Positions 9,825-18,732 of a stretch of 35,361 nucleotides of DNA are shown here, in pieces. Every line of letters starts with the position of its first letter. Within the stretch, counting starts at the first letter, position 1. Where the stretch lies: NCBI GenBank assembly GCA_023265365.1, contig JAHFTY010000004.1, forward strand, positions 14,420 through 49,780. Direction: 5' to 3'. The translations under genes and the position numbers were made by a program. The notes beneath the pieces were generated by a model. It was not told the DNA's origin. It saw only the letters and a program-made list of their open reading frames with translations, and made no database searches. Source of the stretch: Acidobacteriota bacterium. GTDB taxonomy: Bacteria > Acidobacteriota > Terriglobia > 20CM-2-55-15.

Positions 9825-9834
9825 AGTGAGGGCC

Positions 9835-10140
9835 ATGAAGCATACGAAGAGGAAGGAGATCACTTTCACGGAAGCGCGACAGCGGCTGACTTCCATACTG
9901 GACGAAGTGGCCAGTTCCGGCAAACCGGTGACGATTCTCCGCCGGGGTAAACCCGCGGCGGTGATTATTTCGCACGAGATGTATGAGCGGCAGGTCACCC
10001 GGACGAAACCCTTTCGCCTTGCGGGATCCCTGAGAGTCACGCCTGGCGTCGACATCGACGAAGCGCTTGCGAAGGCGAAGGAAGAAAGAATCGGGCAGTG
10101 GGAAGACCGGATGAAACGCTGGGACAAGGACGCTACCTGA
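9835..10140 (+). CDS. Phd/YefM-family antitoxin
   Basis: DNA-binding antitoxin of 101 residues from the ATG at 9835; an in-frame GTG at 9826 is possible but sits at the edge of the operator. The N-terminal Phd/YefM domain has ITFTEARQRLTSILDEVASS followed by KPVTILRRGKPAAVIISHEMYER, the classic fold that forms dimers on operator DNA. The charged C-terminal tail (IDEALAKAKEERIGQWEDRM) would wrap the toxin. The stop is 2 bp before the PIN toxin start, a standard module layout. It likely represses its own promoter through the TGTACA boxes just upstream. Confidence 0.88.
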   Translation: MKHTKRKEITFTEARQRLTSILDEVASSGKPVTILRRGKPAAVIISHEMYERQVTRTKPFRLAGSLRVTPGVDIDEALAKAKEERIGQWEDRMKRWDKDAT

Positions 10141-10142
10141 CG

Positions 10143-10535
10143 ATGTACGTCACCGACACTCACTCACTGGTTTACTACTCCGGCCAACAGTTCAGCCGAT
10201 TGGGCAGGAACGCCCGCCGCTTGTTCAACAGTGCCGATGAGAATGAAACTCTGATTTACATTCCAACCGTCGTTCTGTGGGAGGTTACACAGCGGATCGC
10301 CGGCGGGGCCTTGGCCTTGCCGATGCCGTTCGACCGGTGGTGTCGCGCATTCGACTCCACGACCGGCTTCCTGATCGCACCGCTGGAATGGCAGGATATC
10401 GACCAGGCCCGGACGTTCTCTTTCAAGGACCCGTTCGACCGCCTCATCGCCGGGACAGCGTTGCGCCTGGGAGTTCCTCTGATCACCAAGAACAGGGAGA
10501 TCTGCGATTCGGGTCTCGTCGAGACCACCTGGTAA
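10143..10535 (+). CDS. PIN-domain toxin (VapC-like ribonuclease)
   Basis: Predicted RNA-cleaving toxin partner of the preceding Phd antitoxin. It has 130 residues and starts MYVTDTHSLVYY. The acidic PIN residues visible are D5 (VTDTHSL), E47 (VLWEVTQ) and D96/D99 in the KDPFDRLIAGTA motif. At the fourth position the usual TKD/TRD appears as TKN (N117 in LITKNREI), so the magnesium site may be weakened. Translation likely follows the antitoxin, whose stop is 2 bp upstream. The pairing of a PIN toxin with a Phd antitoxin is common. The PfkB kinase start is 6 bp downstream of the stop, so the module may drive that gene too. Confidence 0.87.
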   Translation: MYVTDTHSLVYYSGQQFSRLGRNARRLFNSADENETLIYIPTVVLWEVTQRIAGGALALPMPFDRWCRAFDSTTGFLIAPLEWQDIDQARTFSFKDPFDRLIAGTALRLGVPLITKNREICDSGLVETTW

Positions 10536-10541
10536 GACGCA

Positions 10542-11462
10542 ATGCTTCCAACCGTTGACGTGGTGGGACTCGGGTTGAACGCGATGGACACGATCTGCGT
10601 CGTCGATCGGTATCCGGAACCCAAGACCAAAACCGCCATTCAAAGAGTCCGCGTGGAACCCGGCGGACAAGTGGCCACCGCCCTGGCCGCCTGCGCGCGC
10701 TTTGGGCTGACTGCCCGATACATAGGCTCCGTCGGCGGCGACGACGCCGGAAAGGCTCAGCTCGCGAGTCTGCGCGACGCGGGATTGAGCACCCAGTTTG
10801 TTCGCGTTGTGGAAGGAGCGACCACGCAGTTTGCCGTGATCGTTCTCGAAGAGGGCGTCGGCGAGCGGACCATTCTCTGGCACCACGATCCCCTCCTCGA
10901 TTGCCTCGCTGAAAACCTCCAACGCGAGAGCATTACGTCTGCGCGAGTCCTTCATCTCGACGGCTGCGACTCCGCGGCCGCGCTCAAGGCCGCCCGCTTC
11001 GCCCGCGAGGCCGGCATTCCGGTGGTCATCGATATCGATGAGGTTTACGACCACACCACGGAGGAACTCCTGCGAAACGTGGACTACCTCATTGCTGCCC
11101 AGGACTTCGCGAAGGCCCTTTTCGGAGAGCGGAGTCCCGAAGATTCCGTCCGCGCCCTGGCCGACCGTTTTCGCTCGCCGGTTGCCGGAGTCACGATGGG
11201 CGATTGCGGGGCGGTCTTCTTCGAGAGAGGACGCATTCTTCACTCCCCGGCATTCACGGTTCCGGTCGCGGATACCACAGGCGCCGGTGATGTTTTCCAC
11301 GGCGCGTTCATTTACGGATTGCTTCAGAAGTGGATTCTCGACGACATCGTCCGCTTCGCCAATGCCGCCGCCGCTCTGAAGTGCACACAGATTGGCGCCC
11401 GCCGCGGGATTCCGTCGCTTGAAGACGTTCAGACGTTGATCGCCGGAAATCGGCGATCGTAG
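10542..11462 (+). CDS. PfkB/ribokinase-family carbohydrate kinase
   Basis: ATP-dependent kinase of a sugar or nucleoside; the substrate is not evident. The 306 residues show the family pattern: N-terminal VDVVGLGLNAMDTICVVDRYP, glycine pair VEPGGQVATALAACARFG (about 39-55), and the C-terminal signature DTTGAGDVFHGAF (244-256) with catalytic D250 and the anion hole GAG. The first signature and the small lid strand are typical of ribokinase relatives. It follows the PIN toxin by 6 bp, with no obvious promoter of its own in that gap, so it may be read with the toxin module although it has no functional link to it that I can see. Several in-family functions (ribokinase, fructokinase, KDG kinase) remain possible. 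Confidence 0.88.
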   Translation: MLPTVDVVGLGLNAMDTICVVDRYPEPKTKTAIQRVRVEPGGQVATALAACARFGLTARYIGSVGGDDAGKAQLASLRDAGLSTQFVRVVEGATTQFAVIVLEEGVGERTILWHHDPLLDCLAENLQRESITSARVLHLDGCDSAAALKAARFAREAGIPVVIDIDEVYDHTTEELLRNVDYLIAAQDFAKALFGERSPEDSVRALADRFRSPVAGVTMGDCGAVFFERGRILHSPAFTVPVADTTGAGDVFHGAFIYGLLQKWILDDIVRFANAAAALKCTQIGARRGIPSLEDVQTLIAGNRRS

Positions 11463-11747
11463 CAGGCGGCGCGATGGTCATGGATAGAGTCGCAGGATAA
11501 AGACTTTTCCCCGCCTTGGCGGCTTTGCACAAAAAGTCAGATGTCTCGTTGAAGTACTGCTGTCCCAATGAAGCGAAATCGAGGAAAAGCGTTTTCCCCT
11601 CCTCGACGGGGAGGGGTGGCGCGAAGCGCCGGGGTGGTGCTGTAGAAACTGATTTTGTTGAACGAACCGCCCCGCCGCTTCGCGGCACCCCGCCTTGGCC
11701 AGGGCGGGGAGAAGTCCTTGTGGAAAACGATTTTCCTCGTCTGCCGC
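11463..11747. other. Intergenic region between convergent pfkB and TPR genes
   Basis: No gene is visible. A stretch at about 11500-11525 contains CCCCGCCTTGGCGG, matching the CCCCGCCTTGGC of the element that follows. The remainder is the inverted-repeat element at 11580-11739, reported separately. Convergent gene ends are a common landing place for such repeats. Confidence 0.6.
11580..11739. repeat. Inverted-repeat element with hairpin arms (MITE-like)
   Basis: A 160-bp element. Terminal inverted repeats CGAGGAAAAGCGTTTTCC (11580-11597) and its copy at 11722-11739 differ at one of 18 positions. Inside, 11610-11638 and the reverse complement of 11666-11694 agree at 25 of 29 positions. Each arm folds into two hairpins: CCCC(T/G)CC with GG(A/C)GGGG, and a GAA-capped stem GGCGC/GCGCC in one arm and GCCGC/GCGGC in the other. 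The arm differences are paired changes that keep the stems. It carries no coding sequence. It may also act as a bidirectional terminator for the two converging genes. Confidence 0.75.
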
Positions 11748-12932
11748 CTATCCCTTGTACGGTTTCCGGATGAATCCCTGGGCAGTTTCTTTGTAATCGG
11801 AACCGCAATCCAGCTTAAGGACGGCGTTGTACTGCTGGACCGCTTTCTGACGTTCGTTGCGCGAGTCGTAGATTTTTCCCAGCCAGATGTAGGCATCCGC
11901 CTTCTCTTCCGGCGTGGCTCTGGCGCCGGTCACCACCTTATTGAAAGCGGCAATGGCGTCGTCGAGGTCCAGGCGGTAAACGTTGGCTTCGCCAAGTTCC
12001 CTATAGACGAGTTCTTCGCGAAGCCGGTCGTAGCCATCCTGTTTTGCGACGGTTTTGGAAAGAACGTGCTGATACACCTGGACCGCGCCGTTCCAGTTCT
12101 TCATCTTTTCGTAAACGCCGGCCTTTTCCAGTTCGAGCTGGAAGTTCCGTGGATATTTGGCGAGCAACTCATCGATGAGGTGAAGCGACTCCGCGAAACG
12201 CTTTTCCCGGTTGTAGGCCACGATGAGGATCAGCTTCGCATCCGTGGATGCGCGAGCCCCCTTCGTGGCGGCGATTTGCAGCTTGCGGATGCCTTCATCC
12301 TTGCCCGAGCCGCACACGCCAAAGATGCAGGCGATCATGCGGAAGAACGGGGGAATGACGCTCACGCCGTAATCGAAGGTTCCGATGGCCAGTTGAGCAT
12401 CGTGGAAATTCGGGTCGAGTTTCAGCACCTGCTGGTGGTAGTTCCTTGCGGTTTTCGCACGGCTGACGGCGGAGCGATACGAACGCTGGGCAATACCTTC
12501 GAACGCCGCGAGGGTCGCGTTCGAAACGCCGAGTGCATATAAAGCGCGCACATCTTTCGGGTTTCGTCCGCGCATGGCGCCGGCCTTCGCTATCGCCATG
12601 TTGACGGTGTCGCGCAGCCGTTTTTCGTCTGCCGGTTTGATGGAGTCGCGCGACCGTTTGTCGCCAATGTCGGGTCCCGAGTAGCTGGCCACGTTCAGTT
12701 TCTGCTGGTCGTAGAGAATCTTGAGCCAGATCGTGGAGGCGAGACCGTTCCAGTAATCCGGATTGGATTCGTCCTGCCGGATCAGGCTATTGAATGCCGC
12801 TTCGGCGATGCTAAAGTCGAGGTTGTACAGGGCGTCCGCAGCCTGCTGGTAGGTGACGGCGGACGACTGGGGCGTCGCAACGGCAAGGGTTGCGGAAAGC
12901 AATACGACGATGATTCCGTTCAAAGACAACAT
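11748..12932 (-). CDS. Secreted TPR-repeat protein, function unknown
   Basis: A protein of 394 residues from the ATG at 12932. The N-terminus MLSLNGIIVVLLSATLAVATPQS is a signal peptide, so it is probably periplasmic. Helical repeats of tetratricopeptide type run through the chain: AADALYNLDFSIAEAAFNSL near 30-50, DVRALYALGVSNATLAA in the middle, and YIWLGKIYDSRNERQKAVQQYN near the end. A hydrophobic segment with two cysteines (MIACIFGVCGSGKDEG) interrupts them. TPR proteins mediate protein contacts; no partner can be named. An in-frame extension to 12980 lacks a leader. The start lies 23 bp inside the divergent rhomboid gene, which is unusual. Confidence 0.75.
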   Translation of the reverse strand: MLSLNGIIVVLLSATLAVATPQSSAVTYQQAADALYNLDFSIAEAAFNSLIRQDESNPDYWNGLASTIWLKILYDQQKLNVASYSGPDIGDKRSRDSIKPADEKRLRDTVNMAIAKAGAMRGRNPKDVRALYALGVSNATLAAFEGIAQRSYRSAVSRAKTARNYHQQVLKLDPNFHDAQLAIGTFDYGVSVIPPFFRMIACIFGVCGSGKDEGIRKLQIAATKGARASTDAKLILIVAYNREKRFAESLHLIDELLAKYPRNFQLELEKAGVYEKMKNWNGAVQVYQHVLSKTVAKQDGYDRLREELVYRELGEANVYRLDLDDAIAAFNKVVTGARATPEEKADAYIWLGKIYDSRNERQKAVQQYNAVLKLDCGSDYKETAQGFIRKPYKG

Positions 12933-13584
12933 TCCTTCCCGCACGATTCCTTTCATCACCGTTCTGATCATCATTCTCAATGTGCTCGTCTTTGTCTTCG
13001 AGATCTCACTCGGTCCTCGAACGCTTCAGGCTTTCATCTACGCTTTCGGGGTCGTTCCGGCACAGTTCTTAGCGGAGCCATACATCGTTCCGTTCTTCAC
13101 TTCCATGTTCCTGCATGGCGGCTGGATGCATCTCATCGGAAACATGTGGTACCTCTGGATATTCGGCGACAACGTCGAAGATAAACTCGGGCACTTCCGG
13201 TTTCTCCTATTCTACCTGCTGTGCGGCCTCGGCGCGGGAATCGTCCACATGGCGTTGAACGTAAATTCCGTCATTCCCAGTGTCGGCGCAAGCGGCGCGA
13301 TAGCGGGCGTGCTGGGCGCCTACATGCTGTCCTATCCGGGCGCGCGGGTTCTGACGCTGGTTCCGATCTTCATCTTTATCCAGGTGATCGAGATCCCGGC
13401 GCTGGTCGTTTTGTTTTTCTGGTTCGTCATGCAACTGTTCTCGGGAATGGCGTCGCTCGCGGTTGCCACAACCAGCTCCGGCGGTGTTGCCTGGTGGGCG
13501 CACATCGGCGGCTTCGTCATCGGAATGATTCTCCTCGGCGTCCTCGGGCGCAAACCTCGTTATGGCGATTACTCCAGGTATTAG
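12910..13584 (+). CDS. Rhomboid-family intramembrane serine protease
   Basis: Integral membrane protease of 224 residues that would cleave transmembrane helices. It has about six or seven hydrophobic helices. The loop and helix motif FLHGGWMHLIGNMWYLWIFG includes H74 and N78 of the oxyanion site; the catalytic serine is S128 in SVGASGAIAGVLGAYM, and the catalytic histidine is H198 in WWAHIGGFVIG. The ATG at 12910 gives the usual short N-terminus MIPFKDNIPSRTIPFIT. It overlaps guanine deaminase by 23 bp downstream (same strand) and its first codons overlap the 5' end of the divergent TPR gene. No cysteine-rich N-terminal domain is present. Confidence 0.93.
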   Translation: MIPFKDNIPSRTIPFITVLIIILNVLVFVFEISLGPRTLQAFIYAFGVVPAQFLAEPYIVPFFTSMFLHGGWMHLIGNMWYLWIFGDNVEDKLGHFRFLLFYLLCGLGAGIVHMALNVNSVIPSVGASGAIAGVLGAYMLSYPGARVLTLVPIFIFIQVIEIPALVVLFFWFVMQLFSGMASLAVATTSSGGVAWWAHIGGFVIGMILLGVLGRKPRYGDYSRY

Positions 13585-17427: not shown

Positions 17428-17432
17428 CGGTT

Positions 17433-17452
17433 TGGGGACAGTCCCCGAACTC
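17433..17452. repeat. Left REP palindrome of the RAYT element
   Basis: Positions 17433-17452 hold a GGGGACAGTCCCC palindrome (17434-17446) with the tail GAACTC. The same 20 bases occur in perfect reverse complement at 18260-18279, bracketing the transposase. Confidence 0.88.
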
Positions 17453-17557
17453 TCCTCTGAAAGAACTTGCGATCACCGCTTGGTTCAGGAATTATTGTGG
17501 TCGCCCCTTGCTTTTGAACGTGGCGCTCGCACGAACGGGTTGCCCGCCAGGAGCAAC

Positions 17558-18238
17558 ATGCCTCGAATCGCTCGAGCCGTGATTCCGGAAGTTCCTCATC
17601 ACATCACTCAGCGCGGCGTCCGGCGGATGCCGGTGTTTCTAGACGACGCCGATCGTCGGAGGTATCTGGAACTCCTGCAAGAGAATGCCGAACGCTATGG
17701 GCTCTCGGTTCAAGCCTATTGCGTGATGACCAATCACGTCCACATTGTGGGGGTCCCGGCGGCCAGGGATTCGATGTACCGCGCCCTGCACCGTTGTCAC
17801 GGAATGTATGCGTCGGAATTCAATGTCAAGTATCAGAAAGCCGGACACGTCTGGCAGGCACGGTTCTATTCCTGTGCCCTGGACGACGCGCACTTTTGGG
17901 CGGCAATGCGTTACGTCGAACGAAATCCGGTGCGGGCCGGGATGGTGGAACGCGCAGAAGACTATAGATGGTCCAGCGCCGCCTTTCACTGCGGACGGGC
18001 CGCCGACCCTGTGGTGATGCGGAATAACCAGCCTCAGGGCATGCAGCCGGAGCAGTGGCGCCGGTGGCTGGCCGGAGAAAACGAATCGAACCTGGATGAA
18101 CGAATCCGGGAACGGACGGGAACGGGCCGTCCTTGCGGCGACGATGGCTTCCTGAAAATGGCCGAGCATCTGACCGGACGGAGGTTGGCGCCGACAAAGC
18201 CCGGCCCAAAGCCAAGAGAGCGAGGGGGTCCATCATGA
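17558..18238 (+). CDS. REP-associated tyrosine transposase (RAYT, Y1_Tnp family)
   Basis: A single-strand DNA transposase of the IS200/IS605 Y1 superfamily, thought to move REP palindromes. It has 226 residues from the ATG at 17558 (AGGAG four bases before it), beginning MPRIARAVIPEVPHHITQRG, the classic RAYT start. The HUH metal motif is in YCVMTNHVHIV. The conserved KAGHVWQARFYSC and the helix RYVERNPVRAG follow; the tyrosine in the latter region is the likely nucleophile. The open frame reaches back to 17432 but that extension reads through the REP and has no family match. It is intact. The flanking perfect inverted REP copies are expected substrates. It lies between the cuproenzyme gene and a broken DinB gene. 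Confidence 0.93.
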   Translation: MPRIARAVIPEVPHHITQRGVRRMPVFLDDADRRRYLELLQENAERYGLSVQAYCVMTNHVHIVGVPAARDSMYRALHRCHGMYASEFNVKYQKAGHVWQARFYSCALDDAHFWAAMRYVERNPVRAGMVERAEDYRWSSAAFHCGRAADPVVMRNNQPQGMQPEQWRRWLAGENESNLDERIRERTGTGRPCGDDGFLKMAEHLTGRRLAPTKPGPKPRERGGPS

Positions 18239-18259: not shown

Positions 18260-18279
18260 GAGTTCGGGGACTGTCCCCA
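18260..18279. repeat. Right REP palindrome of the RAYT element
   Basis: GAGTTCGGGGACTGTCCCCA, exact reverse complement of 17433-17452. The sequence right after it reads directly into a DinB-like coding region lacking its start codon. Confidence 0.88.
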
Positions 18280-18732
18280 TTCGACACGCGCTTGCGACAC
18301 TGGCCTATCGCGCGAATCGTGCGATCCGAAATGCGCCGCCGTCGTTTGCGGAGTTTCCGGCAGGCTCTCCGGACCGGACGCCACTGAAAATCCTCTCGCA
18401 CATCAGCGATCTCCTGGACTGGGGCTTGTCCATGGCAAATGGCACGCCCGCATGGCGCGACGCGCCGCCGCAGCCGTGGGACCAGGAAGCCGCGAGATTC
18501 TTCGCGGCTCTGGAGGCGTTCGACCGGCGACTCGCTTCGGAGGAACCCCTGGCTTGTACCTGCGGACCGATTCTTTCAAGGTCCAATCGCGGACGCGCTC
18601 ACGCACGTCGGGCAGCTCGCGATGCTGCGCCGGATGGCGGGATGCGGCGTCGGCGGAGAGAACTACTACGTCGCCCGTATCGAGACCGGGCGTCTTGGCC
18701 CGGACCAGGCGCCACCGGTCAGAGAGTTCTAA
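18279..18732 (+). pseudogene. DinB-like protein gene, start lost at the REP and frameshifted
   Basis: Translation immediately after the right REP gives IRHALATLAYRANRAIRN and then LKILSHISDLLDWGLSMANG, the helical pattern of DinB/YfiT-type four-helix proteins. In this frame the similarity stops near 18557. It resumes one base later with PADRFFQGPIADALTHVGQL and AMLRRMAGCGVGGENYYVAR, ending at the TAA 18730-18732. One extra base at about 18554-18560 explains the shift. No start codon is available except a TTG inside the REP, and the first codon position reads ATT where a start would be expected. Two independent lesions make a functional product very unlikely. The histidines H in SHISD and THVGQ would have been metal ligands in the intact family. 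Confidence 0.75.

Follow-up and report, generated by a model that had tools for sequence, protein, structure and literature searches.

The intergenic element described here consists of two inverted repeats which, to judge from their sequence, very probably belong to the triplex type, and in other genomes repeats of this type enclose small genes of the DUF559 nuclease family. The explanation that we favor, and consider probable, is that the element represents a non-autonomous miniature mobile repeat, whose autonomous form in other genomes is a DUF559 gene between two such repeats, with the DUF559 protein as mobiliser. The element was analyzed in the context of a window, i.e. the whole stretch of 35,361 nucleotides from an Acidobacteriota bacterium (contig JAHFTY010000004.1, positions 14,420 to 49,780).

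A pair of inverted triplex-type repeats between convergent genes

In the window, the element occupies the intergenic region between the convergent 3' ends of two genes. Upstream, a PfkB-family carbohydrate kinase gene (10542..11462, plus strand; PF00294, E 5e-48) stops before the element, while a tetratricopeptide-repeat protein gene (11748..12980, minus strand; TPR families) is located downstream. The element itself spans positions 11592..11713 (plus strand) and is composed of TTTT, the left triplex repeat, a spacer, the right triplex repeat in inverted orientation and AGAA, the latter reading AAAA in other copies. These boundaries were set from 76 distinct copies of the core in the same genome, many of which have unrelated flanks: such copies start with TTTCCCC and end with GGGGAAAA, and elsewhere the unit reads TTTTCCCC...GGGGAAAA. 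A preliminary description of this DNA had placed the element at 11580-11739, which is too wide. The outer repeats reported there (11580-11597 and 11722-11739) do match at 17 of 18 positions, but they are not the ends of the element. On the left, the match is to the end of a distinct 39-nt repeat module (CTGTCCCAATGAAGCGAAATCGAGGAAAAGCGTTTTCCC; 11560..11598, plus strand), which abuts the unit and, as partial matches show, is also present alone elsewhere in this genome. On the right, a piece of the same module appears in inverted orientation (11722..11739, minus strand); this piece lies outside the unit and is missing from other copies, where the sequence reads AGTCCTCGTCCTGCGACTCC.

The units follow a three-block architecture, comprising a C-rich block, a G-rich block and a mirrored third G-rich block, with a covarying hairpin in the second loop. 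The general plan is a pyrimidine block CCCCTCCT, a purine block AGGAGGGG, the hairpin GGCGC-GAA-GCGCC and a third block GGGGTGGT. In the left unit (triplex finder match at 11596-11639, plus strand), pyrimidine block 1 (CCCCTCCT; 11596..11603) pairs with purine block 2 (GGAGGGG; 11610..11616), the hairpin in loop 2 (GGCGC-GAA-GCGCC) covers 11618..11630, and block 3 (GGGGTGGT; 11631..11638) mirrors block 2 except that T replaces A, all on the plus strand. Block 3 is a candidate for the third strand of an antiparallel purine triplex. A spacer of 27 nt (11639..11665, plus strand) separates the two units, and this is the position occupied by the DUF559 gene in autonomous-type elements of other genomes. 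The right unit (11666..11709, minus strand; finder match at 11667-11711, minus strand) is inverted and contains CCCCGCC / GGCGGGG, the hairpin GCCGC-GAA-GCGGC and the third block GGGGCGGT. Both arms obey the three-block rule with one imperfect triad each, C.C being counted as a triad.

As previously described, the arms 11610-11638 and 11666-11694 (reverse complement) agree at 25 of 29 positions, the mismatches being A/C at position 3, G/C at 10, C/G at 20 and T/C at 26. Positions 10 and 20 face each other in the stem and thus represent the swap from G-C to C-G that had been noticed in the GAA-capped stem (GGCGC-GAA-GCGCC versus GCCGC-GAA-GCGGC). The A/C change is likewise accompanied by T/G in the CCCC(T/G)CC strand. 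The fourth mismatch, T/C, for which no explanation had been given, resides in the third G-rich block, where it is the mirror-position partner of the A/C change. Relative to shuffled sequence, folding goes far beyond chance, with -97 kcal/mol and z -6.2 for RNA and z -6.7 for DNA.

Copies, hairpin covariation and relation to BoxC-type repeats

The pattern GGGGTGGCNNNNNNNGCCGGGGTGGT yields 301 exact matches in the window's own genome (4.72 Mb in 362 contigs) and none for the reversed control. The element is thus not single-copy, a case that the preliminary description had named as speaking against its own reading. The 76 distinct copies fall into three forms: form A, to which the window copy (11592-11713) belongs, is the paired arrangement (TTTTCCCC-unit-GGTGGT-spacer of about 30 nt-ACCGCCCC-inverted unit-GGGGAAAA), lone units make up form B, and in form C two units point away from each other. 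The preliminary description had mentioned similar GGGGTGGCGCGAAGCGCC-type repeats in other bacteria, and the core is found across many phyla: the same 21 nt occur in MAGs named Acidobacteria, several classes of Proteobacteria, Oscillospiraceae and other Firmicutes, Coriobacteriales, Nitrospinota and Capsulimonas.

The stem of the loop 2 hairpin covaries strongly over distinct variants. Watson-Crick pairing is seen in 123 of 144 outer pairs among 29 variants of the GGAGGGGT type (shuffled mean 87, maximum 103) and in 159 of 191 among 39 variants of the GGGAGAGGGT type (shuffled mean 109, maximum 127). For either type, none of 5000 shuffles reached the observed pairing; relatedness of the sequences inflates these counts, but the changes nonetheless include full exchanges between G-C, C-G and T-A. 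The third block was assessed separately. A full 9/9 mirror block follows 38 of the 109 hairpins flanking DUF559 genes, as compared to 0.5% of shuffles, and the mirror arrangement beats the direct one in 9 loci and loses in 1 (sign test p 0.02). The hundreds of copies and the covariation support the preliminary interpretation of the element as small, structured and either mobile or functional; a pairing of triplex repeats about a nuclease gene is a step beyond it.

Knowledge of BoxC-type triplex repeats in E. coli goes back to the 1990s. The window element resembles BoxC/PIT/TM repeats in its succession of pyrimidine block, purine block and mirrored third purine-rich block, and it shares with them the G/C-richness, the intergenic location, the dispersal in both orientations and the occasional arrangement in inverted pairs. 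These intrastrand-triplex repeats (BoxC/PIT/TM_ECO) have been reported for E. coli and more than 260 bacteria, and a mobility function was not found near the E. coli copies (Holder et al. 2015, PMC4666352). In contrast to the published search, in which loops had 1-6 nt (PMC4666352), loop 2 comprises 14 nt here and harbors the covarying inner hairpin, so that the element is a variant of the intrastrand-triplex repeat rather than a member in the published sense. Further differences are the pairing of the arms across a fixed spacer and the copy number, which is roughly 300 as compared to 23 BoxC-type copies in E. coli K-12.

Location between two convergent genes and a very stable fold are also features of a transcription terminator or an RNA element at convergent gene ends, which might have been amplified for its usefulness. 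We regard this as very unlikely. A search of Rfam with the element returned no family match, the BoxC/PIT repeats were reported to have no promoter or terminator activity (PMC4666352), and the 301 copies are divided almost equally between the two orientations (152/149). Moreover, a terminator leaves the association with DUF559 genes unexplained.

Triplex-type repeats enclose DUF559 genes

As DUF559 genes can lie near repeats of this kind, they were tested next, following RAYT genes. Of 32 genomes that carry the repeat, 26 also have DUF559, and many of the 26 show inverted repeats directly before and after the DUF559 gene. Inverted repeats at a distance of at most 300 bp were detected for 28 of 43 DUF559 genes, but for only 11 of 1200 random segments and 4 of 24 RAYT genes. 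A finder based solely on the three-block rule detected repeats on either side in 38/52 DUF559 loci, 0/24 RAYT loci and 9/400 random segments, and on both sides in 21/52, 0/24 and 0/400 cases, respectively; the thresholds of the finder were set after the motifs had been seen and the loci are related, so that the p-values given here are optimistic. A subset of 17 DUF559 loci from class relatives, which had been picked without regard to the repeat, gave 13 loci with repeats on either side and 7 with repeats on both. The corresponding numbers for 8 loci from a plasmid collection, representing E. coli (ycjD), Synechocystis, Sphingomonas, Sinorhizobium, Azospirillum, Methylobacterium and Photobacterium, were 8 and 2. 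At 15 of the 19 both-sided loci listed, the repeats have a common inward orientation (25% expected, p about 1e-6). About one quarter of the DUF559 genes have no triplex repeat within 250 bp. One of the E. coli BoxC-type copies adjoins ycjD, and the gonococcal NGO0050 gene has triplex-type repeats downstream as well.

Two loci deserve separate mention for their arrangement. In Sphingomonas parapaucimobilis (L255 1427-1857), a DUF559 gene that triplex repeats flank on each side is located between sufB and sufC in an otherwise compact operon. In Photobacterium sp. GJ3 (L257 1871-3313), a long array of alternating triplex-type repeats in both orientations immediately follows the DUF559 gene.

Alignment of the DUF559 proteins revealed conserved residues E13, D42, E53, D55 and H59 (aligned rows). 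A structure model (pLDDT 83) matched NGO0050 of Neisseria (3hrl), the homing endonuclease I-Bth0305I and, more weakly, Vsr. These matches agree with the published assignment of YcjD/DUF559 (PF04480) as a putative PD-(D/E)XK nuclease near Vsr (PMC1189080). Judging from the model, DUF559 would thus share its nuclease fold with I-Bth0305I. Homing endonucleases are also encoded by selfish elements; unlike the dispersed short repeats at many sites that are considered here, however, they use a fixed homing site.

RAYT genes carry other repeats

Two inverted hairpin units with a total length of about 120 bp, an intergenic location and hundreds of copies are also characteristics of a REPIN, in which a RAYT (Y1 tyrosine transposase) mobilises two paired REP sequences. 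The likeness to REPIN/RAYT systems extends to the mobile unit, which is an inverted pair of hairpin repeats, and to the coexistence of a non-autonomous high-copy form with a low-copy enzyme gene flanked by the same repeats (PMC3116915, PMC2817692). The window even contains a RAYT-type Y1 transposase gene (17432-18238, plus strand), the only one found in this genome. However, this gene is not flanked by the triplex repeat but by unrelated repeats of its own (GGGGACAGTCCCC), and in other genomes triplex repeats were near 0 of 24 RAYT genes, for which reasons RAYT was rejected as the mobilising enzyme. Furthermore, a GTAG or CGTC tag at one REP end, which typifies REPIN/RAYT according to PMC3733652, is absent from the element, whose unit ends are TTTTCCCC and GGGGAAAA. 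A classical REPIN is therefore a highly improbable explanation; the enzyme associated with the repeats is a Vsr-like PD-(D/E)XK nuclease rather than a Y1 tyrosine transposase. On either side of the RAYT gene of the window lies a copy of its own REP-like repeat (TTTGGGGACAGTCCCCGAAC / AATGGGGACAGTCCCCGAAC, near 17431-17449 and 18262-18281), the two copies being inverted relative to each other; this repeat is unrelated to the element.

Repeats and DUF559 co-occur and co-diverge

Among 60 relatives from the same class, repeats are present in all 13 genomes with a stand-alone DUF559 gene and in 1 of 47 genomes without one (Fisher 3e-12), presence meaning that one of two repeat types was found three times or more. 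The single exception (G066) has 5 copies. The same contrast is seen within one genus (g4), in which five genomes possess DUF559 and repeats and a sixth (G039) has neither. In addition, the repeats diverge together with the nuclease: on the DUF559 tree, the CCCCTCC repeat type requires 2 changes as compared to 14.0 for shuffled labels. The repeat type tracks the clade of the DUF559 protein and not the host family, and two genomes from the window's own family (G036 and G040) group with the CCCTCTCCC clade. Repeats flanking DUF559 are closer to the dispersed repeats of the same genome than to those of other genomes (permutation p 5e-5, owed partly to related gammaproteobacteria).

In the window's own genome, which has about 300 copies, a search for DUF559 gave no match even at E 10. 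Of 100 copies listed, 7 lie no more than 200 bp from the beginning of a contig, where 1.5 would be expected. Contigs thus tend to begin in repeats, and an assembly gap could hide a DUF559 gene in this genome. Such a gap is a possible reason for the absence; the alternative is loss of the gene after amplification of the repeats.

Repeat-DUF559-repeat units and their flanks

Two loci from different genomes (L164 and L170) share a repeat-DUF559-repeat unit with 91% identity, which is bounded by the repeat ends and has unrelated flanks. The same unit occurs at a third locus (L166), whose right flank is common with L164 and whose left flank is not. The target duplication that the preliminary description had proposed to look for is not visible at copies with unique flanks or at these three loci, and a search for a clean empty site with which they could be compared found none. 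The sapF-ycjD-fabI region of E. coli was rejected as such a site, as other lineages hold the eef operon in place of ycjD and the sapF-fabI interval is consequently not clean. In relatives of one genome (G006) the flanks fall on different contigs, and for the Azospirillum and Synechocystis loci an empty site was looked for and not found. A candidate in Sinorhizobium meliloti Ak57 (L273) turned out to be a deletion inside DUF559: compared with L252 (1604-1946), it takes the second half of the DUF559 gene and stops at a triplex-type repeat. This deletion is an example of repeat-associated instability.

Small size, inverted ends and high copy number would also suit a MITE derived from a common DDE-type insertion sequence with an unrecognised transposase. 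We regard this as very unlikely, since an insertion sequence with these ends was not met among the loci read, and the internal three-block structure would be unexpected for the ends of an insertion sequence. Full-length relatives encode DUF559 and not a known transposase, and a target duplication was not seen at the copies mentioned above.

In a different view, replication slippage, recombination or repair would spread the repeats as triplex-forming DNA, and DUF559 would have come to lie between them by coincidence, either because genes and repeats both collect in loose intergenic regions or because the nuclease is a host or defence gene with repeat-tolerant borders. In line with this, BoxC/TM repeats have been reported together with genome rearrangement and without any mobility gene (PMC4666352), the window's genome retains its copies in the absence of DUF559, and the Sinorhizobium deletion ends at a repeat. 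However, coincidence would not predict the shared inward orientation, the co-occurrence in relatives or the co-divergence with the DUF559 tree, and RAYT genes, which are likewise intergenic and mobile, have triplex repeats in 0 of 24 cases in the same genomes. We therefore consider it rather unlikely.

A model for mobilisation by DUF559

The association with DUF559 makes it likely that the element is mobile in origin, while movement itself we infer. That DUF559 is the responsible enzyme is probable in our view, but association alone is no proof that the nuclease acts on the repeat. In the model, two BoxC-like intrastrand-triplex repeats, inverted around the 27-nt spacer, would constitute the non-autonomous miniature, and the autonomous form elsewhere would be the same inverted pair enclosing a small gene for a Vsr-like PD-(D/E)XK nuclease of the E. 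coli YcjD family. The nuclease would most likely read the folded repeat by structure and not by sequence, probably on single-stranded DNA during replication, and would place a nick at or beside the TTTCCCC...GGGGAAA ends. The nicked element could then be copied or moved by host repair or replication. Under this model, the window's genome would once have had a DUF559 enzyme, or would carry one in an assembly gap.

BoxC-type repeats as such were known already. In the open-access literature, to which the search was confined, we found no report that connects DUF559, YcjD or COG2852 with repeats, and the novelty of the link is accordingly provisional. By enclosing itself in the repeats and by co-occurring and co-diverging with them, DUF559 becomes a concrete and testable candidate for the long-missing enzyme, and its E. 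coli K-12 representative ycjD is open to standard genetics. More tentatively, DUF559 nucleases may form a new and very widespread class of prokaryotic mobile elements, the minimal autonomous form of which, with a length of about 470 bp, would be a Vsr-like nuclease gene between inverted triplex-forming repeats. BoxC-like repeats, in E. coli as in many other bacteria, would then be the non-autonomous offspring, moved through recognition of structure and without a transposase of known fold. If so, a nuclease fold unused by RAYTs would join the builders of high-copy bacterial repeats.

Further features of the window

Additional repeat modules are found beside the element at 11480-11560 and beside other copies in this genome (GGCTTTGCACAAAAAGTC..., GTCCTGCGACTCC... 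and the 39-nt module). The intergenic repeats of this genome are thus mosaic, with several families represented. Upstream of the kinase gene, at 9826-10535 (plus strand), a Phd/YefM antitoxin gene overlaps a gene for a PIN-domain (VapC-like) protein, and the two genes represent a probable toxin-antitoxin pair.
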